Source: Pomacea canaliculata (taxonomy: Eukaryota > Mollusca > Gastropoda > Architaenioglossa > Ampullariidae). From it: DNA of 64,000 nt. This document shows, in pieces, positions 6,880-42,920 of this stretch. A program made the position numbers and the translations under genes. The stretch is from assembly GCF_003073045.1 (NCBI RefSeq), contig NC_037597.1:23636158-23700157 (forward strand), given 5' to 3'. The notes below the pieces were generated by a model. It was given only the letters and a program-made list of their open reading frames with translations, did no database searches and was not told the origin of the DNA. Numbering within the stretch: the stretch's first letter is position 1; each line of letters starts with the position of its first letter.

Positions 6880-7980
6880 CTCTAGTTGTAGACCTTTGGA
6901 CAACACGGTTGTTGTCTTTGTCTTGTCTACACCAATGTTACTGCAACCAATACAATGTCCTGTGAGCGATTTCCTTAGCACTTAAATACACACAATGGTG
7001 TGGGTGTGTCTTGAGTGATTTTAAGTGTTTGGCAACTTTATTTATCTGTGTGTGTATATGTGTATATATATATATTGTGTGTGTGTGATTGTGTTCTTGA
7101 TTTGTGTAGTTTGTGTGTGTGTGTTTCTATATTCCAGAATAAGATAAATGATCAGCGGGTGGAGGTTGAAGGAAGACAATATCTTTCACGTAATTCATTA
7201 AAAACGAATAAAAGATAGGTGTGTAATAGTGTAGGAAGTTTTGAAGTTTACAGTACAACAGTTTGAGTACTAGGTTAATATTTACAATTTTAATTCGCTG
7301 GGCTTTTGATGAATTACAAATGTCGGTTAACTGAATCCTGTTTTCTCTGTTAGAAAAAATGAGATAATTACACAATGGACTTCAAGCTGAAACAAGGATT
7401 TTTTAAAAATGGGAAACTTTGACAGCATTATAAACACAAGATGAGAAAAGTTGTAAAACTGCATGAAGTGCTGGATAATCAAAGACAGCTTATTTGTCTG
7501 TTTACACAAACCCTGAAGGCTTTCTCGGCGTTGCTATTTTATTCCAGGTTTCAAGTAAGATGATTGATCTACAAAACATTGAAGTGAATTATATTATGAA
7601 CGATTAACTGTAAAAATAGCTTAAATTGTTTGGGAAAATATTCTTTTTGTTCGTGTAATTTGTTATTAGTCTCTTATGAAAACAGCTGACAAATTTTATC
7701 GCTTGATTTTATTATTTTTTTTTACTTAAGTGTATCGATGTTTCTGGTATTTTAGAATTTTAGAGGAAAAAACGAGGAAGACAGCAGTAGAAAAAACTTG
7801 GTGGAGATTGAGAAGAAAGAGAGGCCTTTGAGATGATCGTAACCGGTAAACGCTTACTTCTTACTTTGGATTTACAACGATAGTCCTTACTTAGAACTCT
7901 GTTGCTTTTATTTGTTTCCTTGTTTCCATGTATTATATTTCTTTTTATATTTTTCTACTTTGATACCGTCTGTGTGGAGT
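6880..7980 (-). repeat. Upstream module shared by receptors A-D, copy B
   Basis: Collinear with the 5' flanks of A, C and D: CACTTAAATACACACAATGG at the gene side, TG-rich and TATATATA text at 7050-7130, AGATAAATGATCAGCGGGTGG, and a distal block containing GGTAAACGCTTACTTC at 7846-7861. It also contains TTCCAGGTTTCAAGTAAGATG near 7541, which occurs in C and in a close variant in A and D. Confidence 0.6.

Positions 7981-9684: not shown

Positions 9685-9755
<71 letters not shown>
9685..9755. repeat. (TCA)n microsatellite at the left insertion edge
   Basis: About 70 bases of uninterrupted TCA/CAT repeat end directly at the first base of the left terminal inverted repeat. The same microsatellite is found without insertion at 37328-37398. 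Confidence 0.9.
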
Positions 9756-9952
9756 GTGCACCTTATTGTCATGCTCATAGACGTCATGGTGACGAAAAAT
9801 CAGACAAATATCGTAGTCGTGCTCGTCATCACTTATCAGATCTGATAGGCAGACACATCATCCCATCAAGCTCGAAGCTACAACCAATCCAAATGCACCG
9901 CCAAACTAACATTATATCCAATATGGCGGTGTTGTTTGCTTTGTAGGCTTTA
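9756..9952 (+). repeat. Left terminal inverted repeat of the KDZ element
   Basis: 197 bp, starting GTGCACCTTATTGTCATG and ending ..TTTGTAGGCTTTA. Compared by eye with the right copy it differs at one position (GTTGTTTGCT versus GTTGTTCGCT). It contains several short palindromes, for example ATCAGATCTGAT, possible transposase binding sites. Confidence 0.93.
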
Positions 9953-10432
9953 TTATGTTTTGCATAATTAAAAGAAAAATGTCGTATTCATGGATATTGC
10001 TGATATATTTTAAGAAATCGAGAAGGTCCTCAGAACTAAAGGTACTTTTCAACAAATTGATAAGATATATTTTAATAAAATCCCTTTTCCAAAAAAAGGG
10101 CAAATTCCATTATCTTGTGATTTTTTTTCCACCATCAGGAATTCAATAGCATACTAGTAACGCTTCATCGGATTATGTCGCAATCACACAATTTAACTTT
10201 TTGAACTGCTTTGTACCAAGGACTGTAACTCTTAGTAGACGCTTTTGGCATAGACATCGCCAATTAATTTTGTTTACATTATCTTTCAAACCGCCCATGG
10301 ATGCGTGTAAGTATATATATAAATATAAATTTATATATATATATAAAGTATGTATATGTAAAAGTCGAGAGGAAAGTTCGTCATAACCAGACGTATTTTA
10401 CAAGAATTTGCGAGAATATATGTTAATAAAAT
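9953..10432 (+). repeat. Duplicated 5' region of the GTF2I-like gene, first copy
   Basis: Text from about 10020 to 10245 recurs in diverged form at about 10385-10432 plus 11545-11700, interrupted by the solo LTR. The shared core is GCTTCATCGGATTATGTCGC, CACACAATTTAACTTTTTGA and GACTGTAACTCTTAGTAGAC. Each copy is followed by a short ATG stretch and a GTAAGT donor-like site (ATGGATGCGT|GTAAGT at 10299 here; ATGAATGCG..AAT|GTAAGT at 11724 in the second copy). Positions 10246-10285 also match the right subterminal region in inverted orientation (30128-30165). It may be a duplicated promoter with an alternative first exon. Confidence 0.55.
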
Positions 10433-11544
10433 TGTCGCGTGTTGCTTGCTGCGGGTGGGTAGTTGAGGTATGGGGGTCCAGAGGGGGTTGCCCGAGGGGG
10501 AGGTGCGGTCGCCTTTCGCTCTGCTGAGGCAGGTAATGGATCCGCATCGGGAGACACCGTAAGTCAAGCGCTTACCTGATGGGGTCTTTTGTTGCGGGGC
10601 CTGACGGGACAGGAGGGCGAAAACCCTATTAGCGAGGGGAGGATGGAAGTTTTCCTCTCCCCAGAGCCGGGCCTGAGTTTTGGTGTTGAGAGCCTGGGTT
10701 CGGACCGGCAGTTGAGAGAAGAGCGTCGGTGCGAGGAGACGTTGATGTCCCCAGGGCTTGCTGTGTGCTTCCCTGTGTTGGTGCGTCCCTCCCGCATCTC
10801 GAGCCTTCTGTGTGGCGCTCAGGACTGGGCTGTGTGCCTTTTTTCTCCCCGGGGTGGGGACGTGTCCTGGAGCAGTTCCACCTTCTCCTGCGTTTTCTGC
10901 GTGCGGCAGAATGAACGCGTCATGAGCCGAGTGGGCTCAAACACCCGCTCACTAAACCTAGTGGGGTGAAGCAGCAAACAGACGGACGGAGGACTAACGG
11001 ACTACCGTCGGCCAGCCAACCACAGGTACCTGCGTGCGAACAGACCTACGCCGAGGTATCAGCGGACTGTCAGTGAAACCAAGATATTCAAGCCGCGAGG
11101 ACTGTGTGCTTGACAATAGACGACGACCTGTGGTAGTGAGGAGCAATTGTGTCTCAGGCAGTGGCCGGGAGGGGGACTAGTGGGTGCGCTGTGGGGGAAG
11201 TTTGTGTCGCGTGGGACCACGCGGACACCATCAGTAGAGGGGCGTGGCTAAACGCTCAGTTGTGTTCGCTAGTGGTGGGACTCCCCACAGTGTGGCTTTA
11301 TTTTTCTTCTGTTTGTTTTTGTTTTATATATATGTTTTTTCTCTTTCTTTGTTGGGTTGGTGGTTGCATTCTGCGGCCGCCAATAAACTTTAGTCTTGTA
11401 GTGTATTTTCGTGTATGTGTTTTATGTTCACTGAGGAGTGATTGGCTTTGTTGCTCGCGGCGGGCGCGTGGAAGTTTGTCGGTGTGTGTGCGAGTGTGGC
11501 TGTGAGAAAGCAAGTCCCGCGACGCCCGGTCGTGTTACGCGACA
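10433..11544. mobile_element. Solo LTR of an LTR retrotransposon
   Basis: A GC-rich block of 1112 bp begins TGTCGCGTG and ends TTACGCGACA, an imperfect inverted-repeat end pair with TG..CA termini. It is flanked on both sides by the direct repeat AAAAT (10428-10432 and 11545-11549). An AATAAA polyadenylation-type signal is present near 11382. No internal retroelement genes are seen, so this is a solo LTR. The clade cannot be assigned from the LTR alone. It interrupts the second copy of the duplicated 5' region of the GTF2I-like gene. Confidence 0.8.
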
Positions 11545-11723
11545 AAAATCTCTTTCAAAAAAGGCAAAATGCATTAATTTCAGCATCAGCAATTCAATAG
11601 CATACACAATTAACGCTTCATCGGATTATGTCGCAATCACACAATTTAACTTTTTGATCTGCTGTATATCAAGGACTGTAACTCTTAGTAGACTCTTTTG
11701 GCGCGAGAATTTTGCGTGCAAAA
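11545..11723 (+). promoter_or_regulatory. Probable promoter and 5' leader of the GTF2I-like gene
   Basis: This is the second copy of the duplicated 5' region (first copy about 10040-10245). It directly precedes the proposed first coding exon at 11724. It is conserved between the two copies around GCTTCATCGGATTATGTCGC although the surroundings differ. No certain TATA box is seen, and the transcription start is not known. The solo LTR ends immediately upstream, so its own promoter could contribute. Confidence 0.35.
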
Positions 11724-14700
11724 ATGAATGCGAAAAGAGGAAATGTAAGTAAATATAAATTGGTTTTACTTTACGCATGAAACTCCTTACTCTTACGGGC
11801 AAATATTTTACTTCTGGCTTGTGTGATAATGTGAAAAGTGACGGAATATCAACATATTTTTTTTAAAACTTGGTTTCAGAAAGCTGTTTGGGGCTTCAAA
11901 AGAAGCACGGCATTAACGCTGTTTCAGAAGCGCCTGGCAAGGAAGGAGGGTGAAAGTAAGCATCCCATTTTAGCAAGAGCACAAGAATACCACTGTGACC
12001 TTTAACCTACACGAATTGTTGAAAACCAAGCAATTTCCCTGAGCCACCATCCATCCCAAAATCAAAATAGTCTAATGGCTTTGATGATTGATGTGTAAGT
12101 TTTTTCAAATGACTATTTTTATTTCTTTTACAGACAATGTAATGTTTCTCAAGAGAAGCAGGGCGGAATATGCCGCTCTGTCAGTTCTTGAGAAACAAAA
12201 ACTGATAAGGGAGGCTGCAACCCCAGCTCTTCCAATTACTCTGGAGGAAAAAAAGATGTATTTGAAGCAGCTAATGGAGCAGCTGAAGAAGGTGGTAAGT
12301 GTTCACCACATCCCTTTGACACTGGCATAACATGTATAAAATTTCTCTTCCCCTTTGTTTAATTATAAACTGATAAGTATTAGATGTATAGAGGTGCACT
12401 GTACTTTTATTTGCAATCTGATAGTGAAAGTACAATGGAATAATTTAATTTGCAGGTGAAAGTACTTCTACACATTGGTGTAGAATATTACTTCGAAATG
12501 CAGCTAGATGGCCTGAGCCATTTGCTAGCACATGATGGAAAATATAGGAATGTGCTAGCAGAGAGGCCATCGGTTGTATCCGATTTGAAGTATCTGCGCC
12601 AATGTGTGCAGAAAATCCTCAATGACGCATATGGTAAGAGAGTGTCAGTATTTGTATACCTGGGAAAATCTATAAAATCCTTGCAATCAGATAAAGGACT
12701 TTTATATGTTTATTAAAAGTGTCATGCTACAGGGCAAATGCAGCCAGCCTGACAAGCATTGTTCTTGTTTTTGTAACCCACGAAGTCAGCACAGAATATG
12801 CTGGGAAAAAACTGCTTTTTCCTTTACAAGTAGATGCAGGATGAGCTAAGAAACTGCTATAGCAAGTATGAGCACAGCAGTTAATCTTTCTACTGTCTTG
12901 GGGCATGAGATGTACAGTATTGGAGCACTCAATTGTTTGAGAAAATGAGTTACTTTCAAACATCCTATAAGAATTTTATGTATTTACTGTATTGTTCCGA
13001 TAATTTTCTACCACTGCATCTGATGTGTGAATGTTTGATTTCAGGAAGAGCATTGGGGAGGGAAGAGTGTAACGTCCGCTTCCCTTACAAGAAACACTCT
13101 CTGGCACCTGTAGTCATAGTTACAGGGATGCCAGAGGGTGTAAACTTGAAACACCCCTCCTTTTACGGTATTTCTACCTTAAGGAAGATCATCTCCAAGA
13201 AGGAGATGATCAAAATGGACCTTATAGCCCAAAGGTAAATTTTTATAGTTTTCCTCGTACATAAATGGTCTGTTAATTCTGGAGGCAAAGCACAGTAGAG
13301 TGTGAGGTCTCTCGCTTAAATCTTTGGTTTGTTCAGTTTCAAGATATGATCATGGTACGACAATGAAATCCATCTATACAAATGTCCTTGTGCAGTGAGG
13401 TGGGAGAACCGAGTATTCCACAAGCACCAGTGGTGGCAAATATGTGAGTATATGATATATGATATACTTCTGTGGGACACTGGAGAATAAATGCAATGTA
13501 TGTGGAAATAGCAGCAGTGGATTTAATTTTCAATATTTTTTACAGAAGCAGATCAGTGTTAACAATATGGGAACTGTTTATTTTTAATGGTACAGTAAAG
13601 TGTGAGATCTCATGCTTACCTCTTCTGTTTTTCAAGTTTCGTGGCTTCAGACCCATCCTCGGAAGTAACACAAAACACCTTGGGGCAGGATATATGAGTA
13701 TAGTTTACAACACACAGGAATTTTTTTTTTGGTTCAATAATGTGTACAAAAGCAGATTAGTTTGACCAATACAGTATTCCAATGGGTATGTTAATTCTGA
13801 AAGCTAAGCACAGTACAGTTTGAGATCTCATACTTAAATTTTTGGTATCTTCAGTTTCACAAGAGGGTTAGGGTGCAATGATTTGTTTCATCGATACAAA
13901 TGTCATTGTGCAGTGTTGCACAAGAACCAAGTCCGTGTGCCGCAGAAGTCATCCACAGCAGCGTGGAGACAGATATGTGAGTATATTAGTGTGAAAAACA
14001 GGAATATAAGTACAATCTATGTGGAAATAGCAGCAGTGGATTTGAATTTCGATGTTATTACCGAAGTGGATCACTTTTAACACTTTAGGAAACCTGTTCA
14101 TTCTGAATGGTACAGTACAGTGTGAATCTTTGGTTTCTTCAGTTTCATGGCCTCAGACAGAGCCTCAGGAGTACAAAACACCATAGCGCAGGATATGTGA
14201 GTACAGTGTTCCCTCGTTTATCGCGGGGGATCGGTGCTATGATCAGCCGCGATAAACGAATTTCCGCGAAATAGGGACATACATGAAATAATAATATATA
14301 CATGTAAAACAATATCATGTGAGTGTAAAGTAATATATTAATAATGGTATTAATACAGTACAATAACAAATTAGTGTAAAAAAATTATAACTTTACTCAG
14401 AGAAACCCAAAAAACTGATGCGAACTGGCTGCGAGATGGGAGATAACAATCATGGCTTGTCGCTTACGCATAGCAATGGATTTCTGTTACACAATTATTT
14501 CTTTCTTTCTATCTACAAAATAACCATGGTATTTTAATAGAAATACTAATACAGCTTCATTTTTCGTCTTTTTCCTGTTGAAGTATCTATGGTATTTTGT
14601 AGAACGATAATTCCCAGCACGAAAATATCGATCGATAATTCACTCAAAAAAAACCGCGAAGTAGTGAATCCGCGATAGATGAACCGCGAAGTAGCGAGGG

Positions 14701-17700
14701 AACGCTGTATACTTTACTATATACCGGATTTTTTCCATTAATTTGTACACAAACAGATCAGTTGAGACAATACAGGATTCCACTGGGTCTGCTTATTATG
14801 AAAGCAAAGCACAGTACAGTTTGAGATCTCATACTTAAATTTTTGGTATCTTCAGTTTCACAAGAGGGTTAGGGTGCAATGATTTGTTTCATCGATACAA
14901 ATGTCATTGTGCAGTGTTGCACAAGAACCAAGTCCGTGTGCCGCAGAAGTCATCCACAGCAGCGTGGAGACAGATATGTGAGTATATTAGTGTGAAAAAC
15001 AGGAATATAAGTACAATCTATGTGGAAATAGCAGCAGTGGATTTGAATTTCGATGTTATTACCGAAGTGGATCACTTTTAACACTTTAGGAAACCTGTTC
15101 ATTCTGAATGGTACAGTACAGTGTGAATCTTTGGTTTCTTCAGTTTCATGGCCTCAGACAGAGCCGCAGGAGTACAAAACACCATAGCGCAGGATATGTG
15201 AGTATACTTTACTATATACCGGATTTTTTCCATTAATTTGTACACAAACAGATCAGTTGAGACAATACAGGATTCCACTGGGTCTGCTTATTATGAAAGC
15301 AAAGCACAGTACAGTTTGAGATCTCATACTTAAATTTTTGGTATCTTCAGTTTCACAAGAGGGTTAGGGTGCAATGATTTGTTTCATCGATACAAATGTC
15401 ATTGTGCAGTGTTGCACAAGAACCAAGTCCGTGTGCCGCAGAAGTCATCCACAGCAGCGTGGAGACAGATATGTGAGTATATTAGTGTGAAAAACAGGAA
15501 TATAAGTACAATCTATGTGGAAATAGCAGCAGTGGATTTGAATTTCGATGTTATTACCGAAGTGGATCACTTTTAACACTTTAGGAAACCTGTTCATTCT
15601 GAATGGTACAGTACAGTGTGAATCTTTGGTTTCTTCAGTTTCATGGCCTCAGACAGAGCCTCAGGAGTACAAAACACCATAGCGCAGGATATGTGAGTAT
15701 ACTTTACTATATACCGGATTTTTTCCATTAATTTGTACACAAACAGATCAGTTGAGACAATACAGGATTCCACTGGGTCTGCTTATTATGAAAGCAAAGC
15801 ACAGTACTGTTTGAGATCTCATACTTAAATTTTTGGTATCTTCAGTTTCACAAGAGGGTTAGGGTGCAATGATTTGTTTCATCGATACAAATGTCATTGT
15901 GCAGTGTTGCACAAGAACCAAGTCCGTGTGCCGCAGAAGTCATCCACAGCAGCGTGGAGACAGATATGTGAGTATATTAGTGTGAAAAACAGGAATATAA
16001 GTACAATCTATGTGGAAATAGCAGCAGTGGATTTGAATTTCGATGTTATTACCGAAGCAGATCACTTTTAACACTATAGGAAACCCGTTCATTCTGAATG
16101 GTACAGTACAGTGTGAGATCTCATGCTTACCTCTTTGGTTTCTTGAGTTTCATGGTCTCAGTCCCAGCTTCGGAAGTAGCACAGGTGCAGGATATGTGAT
16201 TATATTTTACTATAAAACACTGTAAAATATATTGAATAGTATAGAATAGTATGAAAATATGTAAGTCTAATGTAACTGTCATTATTGTGCAGTGCAAGTA
16301 AAGAATGTAGCAACTGAAGTAGTGCAATATTACCTAAGAGTTTCGTATTTATCAAGATCATTTACAGAGCTTTTGATATTCTAAGATAAGCCATATGTTT
16401 GTCTATAGTTATTGGCATTGATTAATTTGTTTTCTTTTCTGACCAGGGAAGAGGCACCTACAAACCCTTTGCAACTTAGTAAGGCAACTGACTTTCTCAT
16501 TAATGCATGCAACGAAATGATATGCAGTGTCTCTATGCAAATATTTATCTGCTCTTTGTGCGATATCATGCAAACATAAAAATAACCTATCTAGATTCTG
16601 TTAAAGCAGAGACATATTTGTAGGATGCAGTATATGAGATAGCTGAACAGATTACCATTTTGCTGCCTGTCATCCATCCCAAATTCTGTGACAACACCAA
16701 ATGTACATAAGAAAAACCCTGTTTGTAGTCATGACTTTATGCAGCCTATGTAAATCAACACCGAGTTTTGTAAGCACAATGCTCAGGCTACTGTTTGTTT
16801 GCTCATGAAGGCGAATTTGGAAGGTCTCAGTTGAGTGAAGCAGATTGGTCATAGGCATAGTCATAGTGAAGGCAGACACTGATTACAATTTTTCACTTGT
16901 AAGTTTGATCTATTCATTTTGTCCAGGCACAGTAATGAAGTCTGCAAAGCAATCCAGGGAGAAAAGCCAAAGAACAGGTGATAATTTTTTTGTTAATAGA
17001 TTTGATAGGACATAATTTACAACTGTTCTGCTTTTCTGGCTGACTGTATTGTAAAGTGTAGTGATGGCTATGTCTTGTCCATAGACATTGTCCTTTGAAG
17101 GAGAAGTCGCAGCCTTCTCCAGTATAATCAGATTTTCCAATCAGCAGATATATATATTTGTGATACCAGCAGTAATTTTGTTGATGTGGAGTCACAACTT
17201 ATATTTAATGTTATTATGCAGGAGTCAGAACTCTGTGGTCAGCTGCAGAAATACTCGTTGTCCAGCAACATTTCAGCCAGGAGTTGGCTGGGCTGAAGCC
17301 AGTGAAACGAAGCAGCATTGACAGCTTTTTGGCCCAGCAAACAGTGGTTAAAAGAACAGCTACTGCACTGGGAAATTATCTATTAAGGAACAGGTAACTT
17401 CAACACTTACCACAATTAAGTCGACATGATCCTCCATAGCTACAAGGAAAAGAGTTAGATTTTGTCGTCTCCAATATCAGCATGTTTGGGAGGGGAACAT
17501 GCAAAGTCCCACTAGGCAGCTAGGGTTGGACAAGACACACCTTGTGCAAAGCACTTGACACCAGTGCCATGCAGGCTGGAAATATCAGGGGAAGAGGAAA
17601 GTTGTGAGGCCAAAGCAGACTTGGAAAATATCAGTAGAGAGCTAGACAGTGGATGCCGAAACCACATGGGCCCAGTTGAACTAAATAAATGGTGTTGGTG

Positions 17701-17832
17701 CCAGCTGCACTTACAATTTATAATAATGGCTTATGATATTCATTTCTTCTTGTACAGCTCGAAACATAACTTTTTTTAAATCAATTTTTAACTTCATGTT
17801 TCAGGAAGAAAATCAGACAAGATGATCAGTAG
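11724..17832 (+). CDS. GTF2I-repeat-like protein encoded by the KDZ element
   Basis: A nine-exon model with consistent phases: 11724-11744, 11880-11955, 12134-12294, 12456-12633, 13045-13234, 16447-16478, 16927-16977, 17222-17393, 17805-17832. Every intron is GT-AG, and the 909-nt frame is open (302 aa). Residues about 130-208 resemble a single GTF2I repeat of TFII-I proteins: an LRQCVQKILNDAYG helix, RALG, a FPYKK step, then VTGMPEGVNLKHPSFYGI and LRKIISKKEMIKM. The repeat is split by the exon 4/5 junction after AYG. The N-terminal 86 residues are charged and helical (FLKRSRAEYAALSVLEKQKL); the C-terminus is basic (KPVKRSSIDSFLAQQ, RKKIRQDDQ). GTF2I repeats bind DNA in vertebrate TFII-I, so an accessory DNA-binding or nuclear role in transposition is inferred. 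Exon 1 and the short exons 6 and 7 are the least certain. It converges with the transposase gene. Confidence 0.75.
13260..16215 (+). repeat. 495-bp tandem array with exon-like half-units, in intron 5
   Basis: There are about five units; the last full ones (from about 14740, 15235 and 15730) are nearly identical at 495-bp spacing, and the first (13260-13760) is diverged. Each unit consists of two related halves of about 245 bp. Each half has a pyrimidine-rich CTTCAG acceptor-like border and an ATAT|GTGAGT donor-like border. In the first near-canonical unit the exon-like parts are 13855-13976 (122 nt) and 14143-14196 (54 nt). The 54-nt part is open and symmetric in phase 2, matching the exon 5/6 junction. 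The repeated 65-codon ORFs starting MFHRYKC arise from this array and are not taken as separate genes. Confidence 0.85.
14204..14707. mobile_element. 504-bp MITE with TA target duplication
   Basis: Terminal inverted repeats CAGTGTTCCCTCGTTTATCG and (inverted) CAGCGTTCCCTCGCTACTTC are flanked by TA on each side (14202-14203, 14708-14709). It interrupts one array unit at GTGAG|TA; the neighbouring units at about 15200 and 15696 show the empty site GTGAGTATACTTTACTAT. There is no coding capacity. TIR type and TA target fit the Tc1/mariner group, with ends like pogo/Tigger elements. Confidence 0.85.
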
Positions 17833-19169
17833 TGAATCAAAGCACCTCACCCACACTGATGACGCTTGAGATGTTGGATTGAGTCTGATGAAGGGCATTC
17901 CGTACTTTCAAGACACATTTTTACTGCCATGTCATCCGTTTCACAGAGCTGACTGATTGGGGTGGGGGTGGGGGTAGGGGTTCTTTCTGGGTACTGCAAC
18001 TTCTTTATCACCATCCACCTGTGTGATAATGCTACATGATATAGCCCAACAAATTAAAGACATTCAAAAATTGCAATTTTTCCTTCTTAGTAGCTGTCAG
18101 TTGCATGGAGCTATATGCATTCTTCATTGTGTTGATGTCTTTGCAGACATAAACCATTTTCCCAGTGATGTGGTTTGAGCTTAGTACAGAAAAAGCACAT
18201 GTATGATTATGTGTACTAGTAAAGTTAAACAATGTAAGGAATGTGTTGCTGTCCACGCGATTTCGACATGGTAGGGGGTTTTGGTTGTGTGGCTATTACT
18301 AAGCATCAGATCTTATGAACTGACTATTTGATCTACACTGTTGGTGTTGCTATTGTGCTTATGTTGTAACTGAGTATATAAAAAAGCAATGAAGTGGAAG
18401 ATTATAATTTTTTTTAATTGGTCTTTTAGATTAAATTCTTTGCTGGCATGTGTTTGTGAAACAGTGATCCTCAGGATTCATCATAAATTTAAAACAATTA
18501 TTGTCATTTTGATGTTTTTTGGTGTAATGAAAAATTGTCTTAAGTATTTAGCTTGCCTATCAATAAGGGATGACCAATTTTATGCCATGTCAAATAAAAC
18601 CAAGCATACTGTATCATATATTCTGTCATTTCTTAGCTTCATTTCATGGTACTTTGTGTTCAGCTGTTGTGTCATAGGATAAGCAGTTCTTAACTGAACC
18701 TTGGACTTCTCCCTAGAAGTTTGGGGGACATATTGGGTTGTTGCCATGTTTGGAGCTGATGGTTGAAGAAAGAACGTGTTCTGGCGTCTGGTCTTGACAG
18801 CAGCACTGATTGTTTTGCCTGTCCTCTGCACTAGCACTTTAAGGCATCAATTTTCGGTTTACTGAAAAAAAGCTTGCCTGAGGAATCAAGTGGGTTGTAA
18901 TCTGAGATTGGCCATGTACCTGGTACAATGGCAACTTCAACAGAAATGGTAATTCTTCATGATAGGAATACATCAACGCACCCAGGACTGTTATAGCCAT
19001 GGTATGTCTAGAAACAGCTGTTGGTCGGATTCACATTCGCATCCTGTTAGAAAAAAAAATGTACCAATACCGTCTGTCATAACCATACGGAACCGCCCAC
19101 CCCACCCCACCCCCAAGGAAAAAAAACCGCCAGCATTTATTATCAGCCACCCAAGTAAAAACATGCAGA
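17833..19169. other. 3' flank of the GTF2I-like gene, nothing else recognised
   Basis: Probable 3' untranslated and intergenic DNA inside the element. It has a G-rich run at 17957-17979, an AATAAA at 18593 that could serve polyadenylation, and a C-rich run at 19095-19113. No exon or known repeat is recognised. Confidence 0.35.
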
Positions 19170-19880
19170 AGTTCATACAGAACAGCAAAGGAACTGCTAG
19201 CTGAAGAACAGGCTGGCTTCAAACTGAGCAAGAGCACAAATATGGAGATTGCAACTGTCGCATTCTCATTAAAGAAGTATGTTGAGAGGTACCTCTATCC
19301 AAAATTCGTGAACGTCAAACATGCATTTCACATAGTGTGTCACAAGAGGTTACGGTATGATACAGAAGTTCGACATCGAAGACTGCCTCGTTCAAGTCTT
19401 CTCAGCACTATAGCATAATTCAACCAGTGCAGTACTGCTCAATAACCAAATAAAACCTTAATTTCGCACCACAGTACGTGTACGTCAATATCTACATGAA
19501 CAGGGTGCAGATCGAAGAGGTGAGTATCGTCCAATACTTGGGAGCCACGCTCTCCAAGGACGGCAGTTCCTCGTCAGATATCCACATAAGATCACAACAG
19601 CAACAGATGCGATGGCTACGCTGAATAAGATATGCATAGAAATAAGAGAAGGTTCACTACCAAGTACATTGTACAAGCTGTACAAAGCCCTGGTGGTGCT
19701 GTTCCCGCTGTACGCATGCGACACGTGGACTTTGCTCGCCGAGACGGAAAGGAGAATCCAGGCATTCCAGAACAAGTGCCTGAGGAGGGTGTCCAATGCC
19801 GCTGTGGCCAAAGGAAGAACTGACTTACGAACCTGTAAGACTGGACTGGTCGTCCTGTACAGGACCTGCTGACTACCGCC
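19170..19880 (+). mobile_element. RTE-like LINE fragment, reverse transcriptase parts
   Basis: Pieces of a non-LTR reverse transcriptase are readable on the plus strand: LLAEEQAGFKLSKST (19200), then SSAVLLNNQI (19428), then QYLGATLSKDGSS (19530) and PLYACDTWTLLAETERRIQAFQNKC (19706-19780, shown here only as a landmark of the C-terminal RT region). The pieces are in changing frames with internal gaps, so this is a dead 5'-truncated copy. Motif order fits RTE-type LINEs common in invertebrates. It lies between the two convergent genes of the KDZ element. Confidence 0.75.
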
Positions 19881-20189
19881 CCAATAGCTAAGAGCAGTGG
19901 CCCTGTCAGCTGCCGCATCTATGCATGTGGTCTCTCAACGACATGTGCCGGTCAAGGGACGACTGACTGAGTGACACTGGCTTTCATCCAGTATGCTCAC
20001 CCTCCAATTTTATGCAATCTTCATCCCTTTGAAAAAAAAAGGAACAAAGTTGGGAGCTGGTATTGGCTTTTTTATGCAACTCTTGCGGTGTAATCGTTGT
20101 GGATTTTGTTGTTAAGTTTTGCTATGTCTAACTTACATATCCCTGCATGTGGAGCACTATCAAGGCGCTTGATAATAGGTGGTGTCAAG

Positions 20190-20760
20190 TAGAAATAAGT
20201 GTAAGATAATGACGAAGGTTGTAGTAAACTATGTACTCTACGCCAGTGAATATAGTATAAATCACATTCCGTATAACACATTTCAAGCAAACTGGAAGAC
20301 AATAGAGAGTGAACGCCTCAGGCGAATACTTAACATCTTTTGGCCAAATACCATCACCAACAAAGAACTCCACCGAAGAACTGAAACCGAGTCCATCACC
20401 ACGCAGGTTCAACGAAGGCGTTGACGATGGATTGGACATGTGCTCCGCCAGCAGACAGCAGACCTCTCCACAGTCGCCCTACGATGGACTCCAGACGGCC
20501 GAAGAAAACGAGGCCACCCAAAGGAAACTTGGAGAAGAACAGTGGAAAGGGAGATGAAAGGAAAGTGCTGGACATGGGGCCACCTGGAGCGGGTTTCAGC
20601 CGATCGACATCAGTGGCGGACTCTGGTTGAGGCCTTATGTGCAACCTGATGCACGAAGAGGAATAGATTGTCCATCCACGACAAGGAGGTGAAAATGGTA
20701 CCTACATTCCAATACATGGGCACCATCTTACATAGGAACTCTAATGAACCTGAATGATAA
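20190..20760 (+). mobile_element. LINE fragment, reverse transcriptase C-terminal end
   Basis: A second LINE piece reads ERLRRILNIFWPNTITNKEL (20310), then RWIGHVLRQQTADLS and GHPKETWRRTVEREMKG, and ends VEALCAT followed by TGA. This is the usual C-terminal end of an invertebrate LINE polyprotein. One in-frame TGA stands where WRW is expected (20423). A short further RT-like piece (FQYMGTIL) follows at about 20706. It is non-functional and probably part of the same nested LINE cluster as the preceding fragment. Confidence 0.75.
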
Positions 20761-22958
20761 ATACTTAATGTCTAGAAATTACCAACCCCACCCCCCCACC
20801 CCCAGAGTACTGATCCATGAAAACGAACGCCGGATTAATGATATGTGTGCAATTGCATAATCCATACTGTGTCGAATTATGACATTGTCAACTTGTATTC
20901 CGCGTACTTACTGTGACTGTACTCAAGCTTGTGTTGTCAAGTTTCACAAAGTTGCCAAGTATAATTTGTAAATAATAAAATAATGTTTATGCACTGGTTG
21001 GGTGCTGTAATGGACTGAATGTGGGCCCTGCGCGCAATGGATAACTTTTGCATTCATGCATTCGCCCACTGTCACGTATAAACCGCAGACATATGCGCAT
21101 TCTTTCAAATAAAGAAATAACGAGATCGCTAGGTGGCTGTACCCTCTTTGGAGGCAGAAATAATTATTACAAACAAGCATCAAATCAAAAGGAACAAAGT
21201 ATTAATGATCAGTATACCGTTCTCTCTCCGTCGGCAAACACAAATAGATTGCAAGTAAAATATATCGATAATCCACACATCAATATAAACAACTATCCAT
21301 CATGTTCATACAAAGAAAGTTCGTCACTTGCCGAAATCTACATGGCATCAATCACAGAGTTACAACACTACCGGTACATCCTTGAGATTCAACAAGTTAT
21401 AACAGTACAGTCACTTTCCGGTCCTCGGTTTTATGAGTCATCTCTATTATCCTCTTCTAAAGTTCAATAAATGGTAAAACCAAAAGTGTTTTACAATACC
21501 AAGCGTTGTTATCAGGCGGGTGGGTCGGATGAGACAAAGCTGACTCAAAGGAATATTTACAAGTATTATTCAGATATAATATTAAAACTTAGCTTTCGGT
21601 CGCTTTTTCTCATTACTGTTCATCATGGTGATAATTACAATGTTCACAATTTCAACAGTTAAAGTTCACACTTCACTAATAAAGCCAATGTTCACAAGTT
21701 CAAAAGTTACAGTTCACAATTGACTAATAGTTACAAGTCCCGCGGACCATTAATGTCTTCTACAAGACTGTAATCAAAACCTAACCCCAACATTAATAAA
21801 AGTAGAAAATAGATTTTCTACAGGTGCAATCTCAGCAGGCATTCCACCGAGTTTACGGACAAAACAAATTAGAACACTGTGCTCTCGGTTTATTGTGCAG
21901 TACTCCGAGTTTATTTCTTCACCACCATGTCCACACTTTTCCAAATGACTGTAATAATGTCTTTATTATTAATGTGTTTACTAAGTGTGTAAATTTTGGC
22001 CAGTCTTGTTGATACTTGTCAAGTAGTTAAAACTGAAACAGAATTGTGGGGGGATAGGGGTTTTGCAGGCATTCATTAACACAAAAAGGTCAGGTTTGAT
22101 TGCTGTGCTTTGAAACAGATCCACTTGACATCACTATATTTCAGTAATTTGACAGTTACTAAAAAGGTGCATGTACAAATGCACTCCATGAAAAAAAATT
22201 GTCAATAATGACAATAACAATCTGAACGAATATGTCTAGCTTACAATCTATATAGGTGTGCAAACTTATGGGAAAATAGCATGAAATGTAAGAAATTCGA
22301 GTTACAAGGCCAGAAGTACATCACAGCAAGCAAACTATACACAAAAATATGCGATCACAAATTTACATATAAAGCATTTTCTAAGGCACACCTACATCAC
22401 AGAGGAAGCTGGGTGTATGGTGGGAATCTGGAAACATCAGCATACAAAAAGAAATGAGTTAAATGAATAATTGAATGACAAAATGCTGTTGTGAGAAGCA
22501 GGAAGACTGTTATTAAATATTTAAAATGTTCCTATCATTCCAGGAAGTAGTTAAACAATTTTGAATCATGTTTGTGTGCAGGATATTTTGCATTCTATTT
22601 TACCACCAGAATTACAAGTTCACTGCACTGTACCGTGATAATGCATATGATGAAAAGCACATGTTTAAGATAAAGTGTGTTCCACATCAAGACCAAAAAT
22701 TTTCATCTACAAGTTATTTGCAGCATTTCTCTTTGCTCTATGTAGAAATATCATGAGAAAGAAGGCTGGACAGTTAAAAATAACAGAGGTAAAATGTCAT
22801 TTGCTAACACTGATTTGATGACATGGTATTTCTACTAAGCATACGTTGCTCAGCTACTCCACACATAGCAAAAATGTTCATTCAGAAATGAGATGAGGTT
22901 CAACCTATACTTGTAGTGAAAGTGAAAGGCATGCATAAAATTTGAGAAGGCAGATATA
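20761..22958. other. Intergenic DNA between the two element genes
   Basis: No exon is recognised. It has a C-rich run at 20789-20803 and short repeated text around GTTCACA and AAAGTT (21630-21720). The 3' untranslated region of the transposase should lie at the high-coordinate edge. Several short open frames exist, none with family features. Confidence 0.3.
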
Positions 22959-25900
22959 TCATTCATCCAGATTTTCAGAATCTTCGTTGTCAGAGTCTTC
23001 CTCCGGATTTTCATCACCCTGCTGAAGCATACACAGCACTTCTTCGAGTTCCAGCTCCGACAGCTCTTGCACTTCTGTATCAACAGAAAGAACATCATGA
23101 TGTGCTGACAAGAACTGCGAAGCTGGCTTAGGAAGTGCTGTGAGCTCAGCAAATTCTAAAGACTCTAAGTCATTTAACATATTTTCCAACTGAACCATAT
23201 GTTGAAACATTAAGGCACGGCAGCCACGGTCATACTGAGTTGTACTTTGCAATCTTTCAAGGTGTTCCTGACACTGTCTTAGCTTCCATTGATACCATGA
23301 ATGAGCTGCTGCTGCATCTTTTTTGAGCAGCCCTTTCTCTTCAGTACATCTGATCATAAGATCAGATAGCTGAATAAATTTTCTTTTTAATGATGATGTT
23401 CTGGGACACACCATATACCCAGCTGCCCCTGTCAGCAACATCTGCAAACTGGAGTGTTGCAGGCAGGGTTTCTTGACCTTCAACAGGTGAAAACTTGTTA
23501 TAAATCGTGAGCAGACTCTTCAATCTTTTGTTGTGTCTGCTCACAACTGTGCTCATTTTCTTGGCCACTTCCTGGCCACCTGAAAATTTGAGAACACTTC
23601 CATTAAGTTTATTTATGTTTCGCTCATTTTATTGCTTATTTATTTATTTTCGGATAAGAGCAGTGACAAAGAATATGGTGGTGTTTGATACAATGTAAGA
23701 CAAAATTCCACATTTCTCCTTTCTCTACGTGCATGCAAAGTAGGAGGAACAGCTACTTTACATTACCATGAGTACTTTGATTGACTCAATCATGTTAACA
23801 CCCTTGTAAAACCATTGAGGAAATGAAATGTTTACTCACGAGCTTCTGCCAGCTGCATCAGACTGTAGCTTCTTTCTGCAGCCACTGATCTCATCTGCTC
23901 CAGCACCAGCTTGCGTTTGCTGACAACAGCTGATGTCAGCTGTTCTCTGTACTGACTGCTGTCCTCTGAAGATCGCACAAAGCCGTACTGGTTTTCCAGC
24001 CTTGTTACCTTGGCAGCCAGTCTATGTGGACATTATATATAAACATTGTACATGCAATATCACAGTTACAGGACTGTATATTATTGATAGAACTGGTACC
24101 TCTAATCCTGTGTTTCAGATGATCCTTTCATGTTATAAAATACACAAGTCGACCAACCATACAAAGTTATTGTTTCATATGGTGAGCACCACAAGGGAAA
24201 AAAAATCTACGTACACACTTAGTTCAGTCCTGCTGTCATCAGATCCTGTTGAGGCTGCAGAAGCTGACCTGCACAAGATAGCAGTTTCTATTACTGCATG
24301 TGTGATGATCTGACACTTATTCTCTCCTCTATATGTACCTTAACAGGTCAAATGAAAAGCACAAAATGAAACATTTTACCCTGCTAAGAAAGAAAATTAT
24401 TCTTTTAAATGATTACAAACATAAAAAGCCTTGCTATGGACATAACTTGGCTGCATGTGTACAAAATTTGCCATGCCTGACTACAGGACAGAGCGAAGAC
24501 ATGTTTTAGGACAGAAAAAACTTACTGGCATTTATTCATTTCAAATAAGGTCAGCATGTACTTGTCCTTCTCATTGGAAGACACTGACAAAAAGGCAAGA
24601 AAGGACAAGGCATATTCATTACAGACTTGAAAAATAACTGACACAGACAAGTCAAGTTGATCTGTTGTAATTCCAATTTTAACATAGTGCATATTTAGGC
24701 TGTGGAAAAGTAAAATTAGAGAAAGCTTATTTTAGATCACCTTTTCTCTTACTGTAATATTACAATTGACAAAAATACTACAAAATACCATCATTTCTCC
24801 TGCATGCTGCTTTTTCTTCCTCTCGCCACTGCAAAACCTTCGCAGCATCCACTGGTCTGTTAATTGAAAACAAAAATATATGCAATTACAAATGTCATCC
24901 TCTATTAAGAGGAAGGTTTGTCGCAACTTCATAAACAAGCGTCCAAAAAACAAATATGCCTAATTACCCTGAAAAGAGCGTGTCAGCTCCTGAAACTGAG
25001 TTGATGAGGCTTCACTGTGGATTCGGCTTTCACCATTTTCTGCGCAAGATGTTTGCCTGTTAAGCATACACAAACATATGATATTTTTTTTTTGACAAAC
25101 TAATCTGATCAAGTATGAGTACAAATTAATGTAGGAAGAGAAAGGATGATAATAAAACTTTCCTATTACTTTTATTGATTCAGCAACCATGAGTCATACA
25201 GCTTGTTCCTCTTGCCATAAAACAAAATGAAGGAACACCTTGCAAAACAAAACAAAACAGGAAAATTGTTTTTACTAACCTAATCGCTTGCGTAACTTTG
25301 ACGCATAATGGAGGAGAGCATCCGTCAGCAAATCTACTCTCCTCTGTGGCGTCATCATCTTGCTGATTCCTGAAAATTTTCGGAGATAGGACCACAGGCG
25401 CTCAACTGTCTCACCGTCTGTCAGGCCTATCCCAGCTGCTGATCGTGGGCCATACTCTAGCTGTAAAAAGTTATCTGTAGCTTTTTATGAAGATCTAAAT
25501 GGTACCACTGGACTGTTGCTGACAAGAAAATGAGTCATTGCATTTTTGACTACCTTTGTGGTTTGTTTTTGATTATGTTTTCACTTTATTCACCAATTTT
25601 ATTTCTTTTAATGTTTTCCGGTGTTAGCACAATGATTTTGATGTAACATGTTACTTCCTGTTGCTGCTGTTGGGTGATACAGTGATACACTTTTTTTAAA
25701 AAATGATCGATTCTGAAGTGAGCATGGGTCCTTTGGCTTATGATACATTGACAGAATCTGGTCCTATTTGTAGATGTTACCTGACATGACATCTTATGAC
25801 CAAAGCTGTGGAAAATAGGCAAGAGAATTGTACTCTTGATCCAGCTCTCCTCTGTTGCTTTTCTGCAACATAATTATTTTATTACAATAAATGAAAGAGA

Positions 25901-28900
25901 AACCAGTGGTATCAAAGACTCTTCTATTTAAGATATGTTTCAGCCAGCTGTAAGTCCCAGTCTGTGACAATGATGAGTTACAAAAAGACACTCTGCTACT
26001 GGGAGGTCTCTCCTGCTCATGTCACCAAACTGCTTCATTTAGATGATGGACACCATGTCTCATTAGAAGTGTTTCATGCTCAGTCTACTCATGAGCAAAC
26101 TAGTACCCTGTTACTAAAAAACATTTCAGTTATGTCACTGACTTTCTCCTATAAGGGAAGAAATTAGTCCAACAACCATTCTTAACTCTTCACTGCAGCA
26201 AATACACCATGAATCTGCCAAACACATATACATACAATAACAATTTTAAGCACACAAAAGTACCAACCTTCAGATGTGCTGATAGAACACATGCAATGTC
26301 ATACATGATGGAGATTTTCTGCGATGTTCTTGTAGCAGTTTCTCCATCAGGCAGACAGCATATCCCAACCTGAAAACAACCTTCTTATTATTATTGCTTG
26401 CAATTGTGCTGTAGATGGAAGATTCATGACCATGTCCATAAAGAACACAAAATATGGGAACTGCCTCAAACAGTAAACAAAAGTCAACAAGAAATGAGTC
26501 CATTACAACCTTTCACCGTGCTTTAGGCTGAAGAAACGATGGGGAATTCGTGCCTGCTACAGGCACAACCAAACACAGCTGTTTCGTCCAGCTTATCTGT
26601 TTGGATTTCGACTGTAGCTTCCCTGCTGAAAGTCACTACAGTCCTGTAAAACAATGACGTGAGTGAATCAGTCTTGCAACATATGAATCCGACACACAAT
26701 CTCACCTGTTGATGCATGCCTTTCTATACCAAACAATTATATGTAAACATGTCAAACATAATAATGATTAACCACTCACATGTGTGATCTCAAATAAAAA
26801 TAGCCTTTAAATCCAAAAAACGTAAACTCTGAATAACTTACCCCATCTCCTTTTTTTGTGAGACAGACATAATTCTGTACAAAATCATCTACTTCTGTCT
26901 GGTCCAGGAAGTAACGCCCTGTGGAAAGCCTCACCGGGGCTTTTGCCAGATGACTTTTTCCGTGATAGGCCAAAGTTGGCATCAAATGAAAATATTCGGT
27001 TCTGAAAGAAATGAAGATCAAAATTAAAAAACTACTAAGTACAAAGCCTTCCTTAACACACATGCGAATAGCACAGAAAAAACGCAAGTGAAACAGCCCA
27101 AATAATACTCACATTTTCAGACAACACTTTTTGACTTCCATCAGTTGCAGGGTCTTCTGCATTAACCTCAATGTCTTCTTTGGCCACCTATATTTCACAA
27201 AACAATTTCGTTTGTATGGTACTTACATCCTTTATACATTTCCATCATCACTGTTATTACTACCTGGTGCATGAAGTTAAAAAAAAAAACTGGCATCCAC
27301 AAGCCTCTGCTACCCTGCAATAGTTAAGTCTATTTCCTGAATATTAAAACTTACATGGCAGGCAGACAATCAGTTCCATCATTCAAGATCTGGATCAATG
27401 TGTTGCAAATGCTGCAAACTGGTATTCATGGTGCATGTACATTGTAAATGCATCAGTTACTAGGGCCTGATATACTCCATTAACCTGCAATACATGCAAA
27501 AAATACATGCTGAACACAAGTTTCTGTACTAGTGAATGAGTCGTCTATATCAGTTCATACGTGCAGCAAACTTTGTAAGTCAGCACATATAGCATTGCAC
27601 ATGCAATCATTCACACAGAGCACCTGCTGCTGCTAATTTACACAGGGTAAATAAGAACATTTGAATATTCGTTGTGGGCTGCATCCTGAATCACTATGTA
27701 TTCCTTGAGAAAATGATTACTATTAAAATAACCTTCAACAATCAAACCCTGTGAAACAGTGGCGCCTGCCTACTAAAAATCTTCAATTATGCAATTAAAC
27801 CTCAAACTAAGGATCACCCAAAAGCTAATTCCAGCACATTACCATGCACCATCAGTATTGTTGACTGGCCATTTTTCCGATATCCCCTCATAAAATGACT
27901 AAAGTGAAAACATGTAAAAACATAATTATATGTGGAGTTTCATAAAAAAAAAATGTGCTGCAAATCAAGACAAGCAGAAAATAATGATATATTTTAACCT
28001 CACTCCATAGCCAACAGTACAACTAATTTCTATTCACTATTAGCCATCCAGTTAAAAGCATAAAAACTTATATTACTAGCATTTTAAGTAAATATCAACA
28101 TGACCAGGACTGACATTGCATTATGTGATTCAAATTCTCACTACCATAAAAGTTGCCTAATTACTATAGGTAACAAATATGAAATGAAAACACATTTGAA
28201 AAGGCCACAACAAACCTTCTTGCTGCTCATGCTGTCTATCTTGCTAAGTCGGGTTGCCAATGCATCGACAAAGCCCTTAACTGACACCTGGCATTCAAGC
28301 ACTAATGCACGCAACCACTCCATGACATCCAGTTTAAATGCCACAGATGGTATTTCTGGGGAAGAACCCCAAAGGCGATGGCGTAGTAGTGTGACGGTGT
28401 CACTCTCACATGAGCAAAATTCAAAAGTAAACAGCTGTGGGCCACCTAGACATAAACAAACATGTTTTCATTGATGATGCAGCAAACCATACCATACCTA
28501 GAACATCATTTTTACTGTCATTTTGTTTTATTCTTACAATACATGTTTATATTTTTACCTCTCATTCCAATCACAGTGATTTCCCTTGTACGTTTTGCAC
28601 AAGATGGTACCTTGTGATTGCTATGCACAAAAACAGGCAAGTTGGCTGCATATGGCACAAAACAATATCCCTAAGGAAAACAAAACAAAACAGAAAAATC
28701 CATTAATAACGCTCATGTACCAATTGAAGTAGTCAACATGCAGTCCATATAAATACTTTGTTGCAGGTGGTGGTTGCCCCTGACACCCCAAATACTAAAT
28801 GTTCCTTACATTCCATAATTTCTGGACTATTGAATGCAGCATTCTTGTGACGATCTACAAAATCCTCCTCACAGAATAGTGCATTGCTGCCACAATCCAA

Positions 28901-29848
28901 AAGCAGCGGATTGTTGGTAAATTTAAACCACAGCAGATACACTGGCTTCGGTCTGGAAACAGCACACAGCTCAGTGTGCACAACCAGCAGTTTCGTGGCG
29001 TATCTTTTCCCATTTGTCAGCACGATTTTACTTCTCTTCTCCAGTAGGAGCTTGCTCCATTTTCTTGGATCTACAATTATGACAAGAAAATATATTACTT
29101 TTAACAATCCTGTGTATGCATTTTTTGACACTAGTTTGGAATTTATAAAGAGCAATATCTCAGCCTAAGGCCAACTTATTGCGCTGAACAAGATAAACAA
29201 TATCAAGGAGAGCCGATCCTCTCAGCCTGCTAGGTGAAGGCACAGAACTCTCTCATAATAATAATAGCAATAAGCAAGAAAAATAAATATTACCCTATTA
29301 CTAAAAAAAAAATTCATAAAGGGAAGATCCTTCATACATACCTACGGCCATAGGCTCAACATCGCTGGATGATGTTGTCGGGATCGGTTGTTGGGAGGAA
29401 GCAGCAAATACTGTAAACACAATAGTCCAACACTTTTATCCAAATTACCAAAACATAAACAATACAAAACAAAACATAAACAATACCAAGGAGAGCCGAT
29501 CCTCTCAGCCTGCTAGGCGAAGGGACGGAACTCTCTCGTAATAACAATAGTAATAAGCAAGAAAAATAAATAAAATAAAACTGTCACCGTATTACTAAAA
29601 AAAACTTCATGAAGGGAAAATCCTTCATACATACCTACGGCCATAGGCTCAACATCGATGGATGATGTTGTCGGGATCGGTTGCTCTGAGGAAGCAGCAA
29701 TAACTGTGTCTGGCTGGGAGGGAGCAGCAGAAACTTTTTTCTTTCCCTTATTCTCTTTAAGGGTTACCCATCGCCCTGTCAAGTGTTGTAAATCTTCACT
29801 ATCTTTTCGGTTGCTTTTCTTCTTTTGTCTGATCTTGAAATACGACAT
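22959..29848 (-). pseudogene. KDZ transposase, spliced, frame-disrupted copy
   Basis: About 16 exons, high to low: 29635-29848, 29342-29410, 28757-29070, 28559-28670, 28216-28445, 27113-27187, 26842-27001, 26510-26643, 26268-26369, 25781-25862, 25280-25460, 24968-25056, 24789-24851, 24217-24263, 23840-24021, 22959-23579. The order fits KDZ transposases: a basic N-terminus; REITVIGMRG; a CxC cysteine cluster (FEFCSCESD) with RHRLWGSSPEIPSVAFKLD and LLECQVS-like LVLECQVSV; then the RNase H core FDANFGLSRKKSSG (probable first Asp), DETAVFGCAC, IMYDIACVLSAHL (second Asp), PIFHSFGHKMSCQ and LEYGPRSAAGIGLTDGETVER (probable Glu); then coiled coil and an acidic tail. At least five frame changes (exons 7, 8 twice, 9, 12, probably 10 and 16) each sit beside a short homopolymer, so decay or sequence error are both possible. 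Exon 14/15 joining is uncertain. Confidence 0.85.
29200..29710 (-). repeat. Tandem duplication containing a transposase exon
   Basis: Positions about 29200-29410 and 29490-29700 are diverged direct copies, both running from AAGGAGAGCCGATCCTCTCA through ACCTACGGCCATAGG. The distal copy is the end of exon 1 and the proximal copy is exon 2. Both encode the same Ser/Thr/Pro-rich peptide (QPIPTTSS.DVEPMAV), in frame, with the same GTATGT donor and phase 1 borders. This gives a repeated linker near the N-terminus. Confidence 0.8.
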
Positions 29849-30179
29849 TGTACCTACACATGAACTGAAACTAAATACAAGTTTCAAAATACAACAGAAA
29901 GAGCAACAGTGCAATAGTGGGTGTCTAATACGAGATATGACATTCAGAACGAATTTTTCTTACCTGTATAAGAAACACAAAACTATCCTTATTGTGCACG
30001 AACGAAAAAAGGAAACCGGAAGTATGGCCTATGTATGTATAGGATGCATGCTGGTTTACAGAAAAAAACAAATACAGAGAGAAAAGGACCTATAACTATA
30101 CAGACTTTTTAGTTATGAGGACTTTTTTAAAATTATGCTAAACAAAATTGGCGATGTCTATGCAGCATCGATTCATTCA
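29849..30179 (-). promoter_or_regulatory. Probable promoter region of the transposase and right subterminal repeat
   Basis: Between the transposase start (29848) and the right terminal repeat. Positions 30128-30165 (AAAATTGGCGATGTCTATGC) match 10246-10285 near the left end in inverted orientation, just inside the terminal repeats, as expected for subterminal transposase-binding DNA. No definite core promoter motif is called. Confidence 0.4.
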
Positions 30180-30376
30180 TAAAGCCTACAAAGCGAACAA
30201 CACCGCCATATTGGATATAATGTTAGTTTGGCGGTGCATTTGGATTGGTTGTAGCTTCGAGCTTGATGGGATGATGTGTCTGCCTATCAGATCTGATAAG
30301 TGATGACGAGCACGACTACGATATTTGTCTGATTTTTCGTCACCATGACGTCTATGAGCATGACAATAAGGTGCAC
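30180..30376 (-). repeat. Right terminal inverted repeat of the KDZ element
   Basis: Reverse complement of 9756-9952 with one mismatch noted by eye. The outer end is ..GACAATAAGGTGCAC, followed directly by CAC/CAT microsatellite. Confidence 0.93.
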
Positions 30377-30388
30377 CACACCACCACC

Positions 30389-30461
<73 letters not shown>
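30377..30461. repeat. (CAC)n-(CAT)n microsatellite at the right insertion edge
   Basis: About 30 bases of CAC repeat pass into about 50 bases of CAT repeat and then into AATAATAATCATCATTATCA, which also follows the uninterrupted CAT tract at 37398. The CAC part is not seen in the uninterrupted site, so it arose by later slippage or came with the insertion. Confidence 0.85.

Positions 30462-41588: not shown

Positions 41589-42920
<1,332 letters not shown>

Follow-up and report, generated by a model that had tools for sequence, protein, structure and literature searches.

A KDZ-type DNA transposon of the gastropod Pomacea canaliculata encodes a GTF2I-type repeat in its second gene

Vertebrate proteins of the TFII-I family (GTF2I, GTF2IRD1 and GTF2IRD2) contain several GTF2I repeats each, and TFII-I has been implicated in Williams-Beuren syndrome. 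In the accessible parts of the published accounts, TFII-I is called vertebrate-specific (PMC10721858), I-repeats are called unique to the TFII-I family (PMC3493543) and GTF2I-like is named among the families not found in Dictyostelia (PMC6873476). Transposons of the Kyakuja-Dileera-Zisupton (KDZ) type, in turn, are known to carry extra genes of unrelated kinds; according to the available portions of the sources, fungal KDZ elements carry TET/JBP genes, which are thought to act on host transcription or silencing (PMC12730594), and an F-box occurs in a Zisupton isoform (PMC12062965). A 64,000-nucleotide stretch of the P. canaliculata genome (GCF_003073045.1, contig NC_037597.1, positions 23,636,158 to 23,700,157 of the forward strand; referred to as the window, with positions counted from its first letter) was found to contain a KDZ-type DNA transposon in which a second gene, on the plus strand at 11724..17832, encodes a GTF2I repeat. 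The genome used for comparison comprised 440 Mb on 24 contigs, in which the window is C8:23636158-23700157.

By sequence comparison, the plus-strand gene was confirmed to carry a true TFII-I-type repeat. The Pfam GTF2I profile search proposed in the first-pass annotation, which had placed a GTF2I repeat at residues ~130-208, gave a significant match to a 339-amino-acid hand-spliced model (E=2e-15; 57.3 bits against a cut-off of 27), covering residues 133-203 of the model and positions 1-71 of the 75 in the profile. The matching residues are encoded by nucleotides ~12594-12633, at the end of exon 4, and 13045-13217, which make up most of exon 5; exon 5 unspliced also scored above the cut-off (49.4 bits) in a whole-genome six-frame Pfam search. 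All ten of the distinct PDB sequences matched at E up to 10 are repeats of TFII-I, GTF2IRD1 or GTF2IRD2 (E from 7.5e-11 to 1.1e-4), and a profile of six copies covering exons 2-5 returned the identical ten, all within the GTF2I part. Since the PDB matches are all to the TFII-I family and the Pfam score lies above the cut-off, the similarity is far beyond chance. The model contained a single matched GTF2I stretch. Misannotation of hAT elements as GTF2IRD2, which has been described in the accessible text of PMC10641963, was ruled out as an explanation because the match here is to the GTF2I repeat itself.

The element occupies 9756..30376 (20.6 kb) and is bounded by terminal inverted repeats (TIRs) of 198 nt at 9756..9953 (plus strand) and 30179..30376 (minus strand), which are 99% complementary. 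The TIRs enclose two convergent genes, the plus-strand GTF2I-repeat gene and a minus-strand KDZ transposase gene; the earlier placement of the former inside a KDZ element is borne out by the 198-bp TIRs and the minus-strand KDZ and CxC1 domains. Five hand-joined minus-strand pieces (~26642-26538, 26368-26318, 26321-26268, 25831-25778 and 25484-25278; span 25278..26642) matched the Pfam KDZ family (PF18758; E=6e-20, profile positions 69-213 of 217), and one minus-strand exon alone matched it with E=6.5e-11. Upstream of the KDZ exons on the same strand lies the KDZ-associated cysteine cluster CxC1 (PF18802) at 28255..28428 (E=2.9e-8; 34.2 bits, cut-off 26.9). An open frame at 22962..23519 (minus), without a Pfam family match and 95-100% identical in a homologous element on contig C3, is the probable C-terminal exon of the transposase. 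Several transposase exons are open singly; a one-base offset of the KDZ frame near 26320 (26318-26368, minus), seemingly present too in divergent C7 copies, may be old or may reflect an unrecognised structure. No hAT family was found by the Pfam scan, the range of which was the second-gene model plus the frames of 21000-30376 on the minus strand.

The second gene was found to be open under each of three predicted splice models. The nine-exon model (11724-17832), which the first-pass annotation had described as fully open with consistent phases, comprises 909 nt and encodes 302 amino acids, with a single terminal stop at 17832 and GT/AG boundaries at every intron. Addition of an exon at 13396-13443 would give ten exons and 318 amino acids, and further addition of seven phase-symmetrical exons from a tandem array would give up to 17 exons and 456 amino acids; both models are likewise open with GT/AG introns throughout. 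The N-terminal exons 2 and 3 (11880-11955 and 12134-12294) are recognisable in several other copies and are followed by exons 4 (12456..12633) and 5 (13045..13234), in which the repeat is encoded. The exon at 13396-13443 and the tandem cassette exons together span 13396..15967 in 495-bp units, present as 2.9 near-perfect copies preceded by one more divergent copy, and consist of exons of 63 nt (starting at 13914, 14915, 15410 and 15905) and 54 nt (14143, 15144 and 15639), so sized that the reading phase is unchanged whether they are used or skipped. The linker exons 16447-16478 and 16927-16977, a C-terminal exon encoding 57 amino acids (17222..17393) and the last coding exon (17805..17832) complete the gene, all on the plus strand. 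One array unit is split by ~500 bp at 14204-14707 (spacing 1001 against 495), bearing short inverted ends cagtgttccctcg / cgagggaacgctg; this insert is probably a nested small transposon. A direct repeat of ~120 bp (10127-10249 and 11578-11702, 89-93% identity) has its second copy end immediately ahead of the second gene and may have a regulatory or binding role. No HMG box was matched by Pfam in the N-terminus of the window gene; the sole match, a weak one to HMG_box_2, lay below threshold (E=0.037) in the counterpart N-terminal exon of a second family (family B, see below), and an HMG box at the N-terminus was rejected.

Relatives of the gene were found on many contigs, with the counts for large families being lower bounds. 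Searched by tblastn with a limit of E=0.001, the genome yielded 35 stretches; the Pfam GTF2I profile, with a limit of E=0.01, yielded 22, of which 20 were above the cut-off, forming 20 clusters on 8 contigs. Relaxing the Pfam threshold to E=10 raised the number to 31 and left the same 20 above the cut-off; the weakest match, at C8:13651422 (E=5), was not classified. The clusters fall into family A, of the window type (nine clusters), and family B (11 clusters), four members of which have repeats 36-49% identical to the window repeat; a hand-spliced family-B repeat matched Pfam GTF2I with E=1.8e-18 and scored above that of the window. Exon order is kept in family B, in that the N-terminal exon is recognisable beside many repeats and the C-terminal exon is close at two loci, and a family-B search with a limit of E=1 brought up 40 stretches, among them further loci that are partly broken. 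Beside one family-B copy there is an open frame (L037:2-283, minus strand) which we take to resemble a MULE/FLYWCH-type transposon protein. The region C7:13.68-13.82 Mb (L010-L013 and L027-L029) is a segmental duplication with several GTF2I exon-5 copies and same-strand KDZ-like exons, and CEP76_C matches were seen in one stretch of it. A search of viral contigs and of the genomes of bacteria and archaea for further relatives gave 47 and 52 pattern matches, none of which was confirmed by tblastn.

Linkage of the two genes was assessed with a 69-amino-acid KDZ exon as probe (23 stretches, 21 clusters) and a distance of 20 kb. A KDZ match lay within this distance of five of the 20 GTF2I clusters (expected 0.038) and of seven of the 15 C-terminal-exon clusters (expected 0.029), these expectations being Poisson values which take copies as independent, as near-identical copies are not. 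Four of the nine family-A clusters were linked in this way, and the family-A copy on C4 has in addition a KDZ-region fragment detected by blastn, which was left out of the probe count. The GTF2I and KDZ genes were convergent in three of the five pairs (the window, C3:22.45 and C3:8.355, the last with a KDZ exon 74% identical to that of the window), as were the C-terminal exon and KDZ gene in all seven of theirs. The second element, at C3:22.435-22.456 Mb, has both ends over ~21 kb and contains GTF2I and KDZ genes in the same convergent arrangement as the window; the sequence read there covered 20 kb of the element and its surroundings and, separately, its far end. At C11:13.70 and C9:19.64 the KDZ exon is close to that of the window (94% and 82%), with no GTF2I or C-terminal exon found nearby; a weak N-terminal-exon match is present at C9:19644232.

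Comparison of the copies supported purifying selection on the second gene. Over exons 2-5 of ten copies, the ratio of non-synonymous to synonymous substitution rates (dN/dS) was 0.156-0.659 and below 1 in all 42 measured pairs (those of the 45 possible with at least 20 codons), values which were obtained by simple counting, with stop-bearing codons dropped, from copies that are not independent. The nine pairs including the window gave 0.26-0.49; for the C-terminal exon, with six pairs, the range was 0.17-0.47. Selection until recently had been suggested beforehand from the open reading frame, and these ratios agree with it.

The history of the gene appears to be mosaic. Between the window and the C3 element, blastn identity was 95.0% over 14938-19359, 96.7% over 22935-27491 and 88.6-94.6% in three segments between, whereas it was only 74.8% over 11545-13262, the GTF2I half of the gene; synonymous divergence was 0.98 for exons 2-5 and 0.13 for the C-terminal exon. 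The change in identity falls around the cassette-exon array and was also seen in the C2 copies (78% before the array, 91% in part of it). At C7:14.51 and C21 the KDZ exon is only 52% identical, yet the C-terminal exon is 91% identical. Taking the jump in identity together with these mismatched values, the GTF2I-bearing half appears to have been exchanged between elements, and the cassette array (13396-16200) is the likely place of crossover.

All nine of the recognisable element ends, from six loci, were located within ~30 bp of a CAT/ATG-type repeat. The ends examined were both of the window, both of the C3 element, two on C2 (mutual duplicates) and one each on C10, C1 and C14; the C4 end was unrecognisable, and C6, C11, C12 and other TIR matches are outside the count. 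The repeats lie at 9685-9755 and 30377-30481 in the window and at L019:7610-7645, L021:7480-7510, L022:1365-1395, L052:55-126, L053:200-240, L054:78-102 and L055:35-100 elsewhere. Related units (CAC, GAG, AATC) intervene between end and repeat at the window right end, C1 and C14, and the C2 arrays are short, with one imperfect. Only 0.4% of window bases lie within 10 bp of a CAT/ATG-type array of at least 12 bp, and two of the three such arrays are the element flanks. The finding at all nine ends suggests that insertion is probably sequence-directed and that this KDZ family may target CAT/ATG microsatellites. In the window CAT is on the same strand on both sides, as expected from insertion into one array, while the repeats flanking the C3 element are inverted, so that part of the repeat may derive from the element or from recombination. 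A clear 8-bp target-site duplication was unreadable in the CAT-type microsatellite flanks.

The reading that we favour, at a probability of roughly 55%, is that the KDZ-type transposon has this gene as a second gene of its own, which encodes a DNA-binding accessory protein that would serve transposition. Support for this reading comes from the GTF2I match, the enclosure of the gene by the TIRs together with a KDZ gene, the recurrence of this linkage elsewhere in the genome, the selection and the microsatellite flanks. The protein would consist of a conserved N-terminal part, one GTF2I repeat, a linker that varies with the cassette exons included and a conserved C-terminal part, and it would most likely be co-expressed with the transposase. 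Its GTF2I repeat would bind DNA, at the ends of the element itself or in the CAT/ATG microsatellite into which the element inserts, and the bound protein could then help to assemble the transposition complex or to choose the target.

Several observations weigh against such a role. The TFII-I core site RGATTR is not enriched at the element ends (3 against 3.9 expected, and 2 against 4.0 expected), so any site bound there would differ from RGATTR. Of the 11 GTF2I clusters in family B, only one lies 20 kb or less from a KDZ match. Among the five GTF2I-KDZ pairs, the two on C7 have both members on one strand, and the C3:8.355 pair relies on degenerate family-B GTF2I stretches scoring 26.1 bits, just below the Pfam cut-off. 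Exons 2-3 alone gave one pair with a dN/dS of 0.90 (33 codons). The KDZ elements of another family at C7:14.51, C21, C7:17.79, C9:13.42 and C6:8.37 have the C-terminal exon, but even with the limit raised to E=10 they gave no GTF2I match, from which the repeat would be dispensable for some KDZ elements here; by reading, no recognisable GTF2I-like frame was seen in the 1.4 kb that precede the C-terminal exon at C7:17.80.

It is possible, if rather unlikely, that the gene was instead captured from an animal host with a TFII-I-like protein and acts on host transcription or silencing and not on the element ends. The unrelated cargo known from KDZ elements (TET/JBP and F-box, as described in the available portions of PMC12730594 and PMC12062965) would fit this, as would the failure to find GTF2I in other KDZ elements of this genome and the separate history of the GTF2I half (75% over 11545-13262 against 89-97% in the aligned segments of 14938-27491), which has the look of a swappable module. 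However, no clear single-copy host TFII-I gene was seen in the genome, the above-cut-off matches all belonging to two multi-copy families, and in the tree the repeats of the elements do not group within those of vertebrates. We consider it very improbable that an ordinary host gene family was invaded by transposons: the gene is open, multi-exonic and under purifying selection, and its copies are clustered on C2 and C7, partly through segmental duplication, but it lies between TIRs with a KDZ gene in both the window and the C3 element, and its relatives form 20 clusters dispersed across 8 contigs. A host gene with a mere insertion nearby was rejected for these two loci by the enclosing TIRs. 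Convergence or chance resemblance to GTF2I, in favour of which nothing was found, has a negligible likelihood and was rejected on the Pfam and PDB matches in both families.

The origin of the repeat was considered in an unrooted tree of 77 columns, built from four plus four chosen element repeats and eight of the ten vertebrate repeats matched in the PDB. The vertebrate repeats all fell on one side of a branch with support of 80/88, which is moderate and below the strong-support mark of the tool, and which 84% of the bootstrap replicates contained; the separation speaks against a recent capture of any single vertebrate repeat. As the tree is short and unrooted, it is silent on direction, that is, on transfer from transposon to TFII-I or from an ancient host to the transposon. 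It had been proposed that the TFII-I unit came from, or was shared with, a mobile element: sharing is shown by a GTF2I repeat that is multi-copy, under purifying selection and located in a TIR-bounded KDZ element, and the tree leaves derivation where it was. The repeat thus occurs outside the host genes of vertebrates as well, and it may once have been mobile. Tentatively, and with considerable doubt, vertebrate TFII-I genes might descend from a domesticated second gene of a KDZ-type transposon, the single repeat of which then multiplied in tandem; if so, TFII-I would be a former transposon protein, and with the later hAT fusion of GTF2IRD2 the family would have met a mobile element for the second time. 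In the literature searched, with few subscription papers within reach, no report was recognised that joins GTF2I repeats with KDZ or invertebrate transposons, and protein databases may already contain related sequences from other invertebrates.

As to the surroundings of the element, an array of similar receptor-like exons, all on the minus strand, was observed at 828-1631, 6112-6981, 33506-34387, 40827-41693, 47798-48571, 52876-53475 and 58906-59697. Two of the three tested matched 7tm_1, below the cut-off, and the array probably represents clustered chemoreceptors, among which the element would have inserted.

Compared with known systems, the gene described here has nearly the whole GTF2I profile in common with the vertebrate TFII-I family, from which it differs in having one repeat, in being transposon-encoded in a non-vertebrate genome and in its other flanking domains; in place of a vertebrate host gene there are 20 dispersed clusters, with the window copy in a TIR-bounded element. 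A selected GTF2I repeat in an invertebrate DNA transposon contradicts the vertebrate-specific and family-unique views, as worded in the accessible text of PMC10721858 and PMC3493543, and the element repeats provide an out-group with which the origin of TFII-I genes becomes testable. The parallel drawn in the first-pass annotation with the fusion of GTF2IRD2 and hAT proved to be a different case, in that a host TFII-I gene there gained a hAT transposase (PMC10641963, accessible part), whereas here the KDZ element owns the repeat. Other elements likewise pair a transposase with a second gene; as far as the accessible text describes them, the Nuwa-type Harbinger with its Myb/SANT protein (PMC12730594) differs in both proteins, and the RAG1L/RAG2L elements, also with convergent genes (PMC7204232), differ in transposase and second protein. 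With KDZ transposons the element shares the KDZ domain, CxC cluster, multi-exon transposase, TIRs and an extra cargo gene; it is set apart by cargo of TFII-I type in place of TET/JBP or F-box and by microsatellite flanks in which the 8-bp duplication is unreadable. The few kinds of cargo gene known from KDZ elements would be extended by a DNA-binding module, and there is evidence for entry of these elements into CAT/ATG microsatellites.

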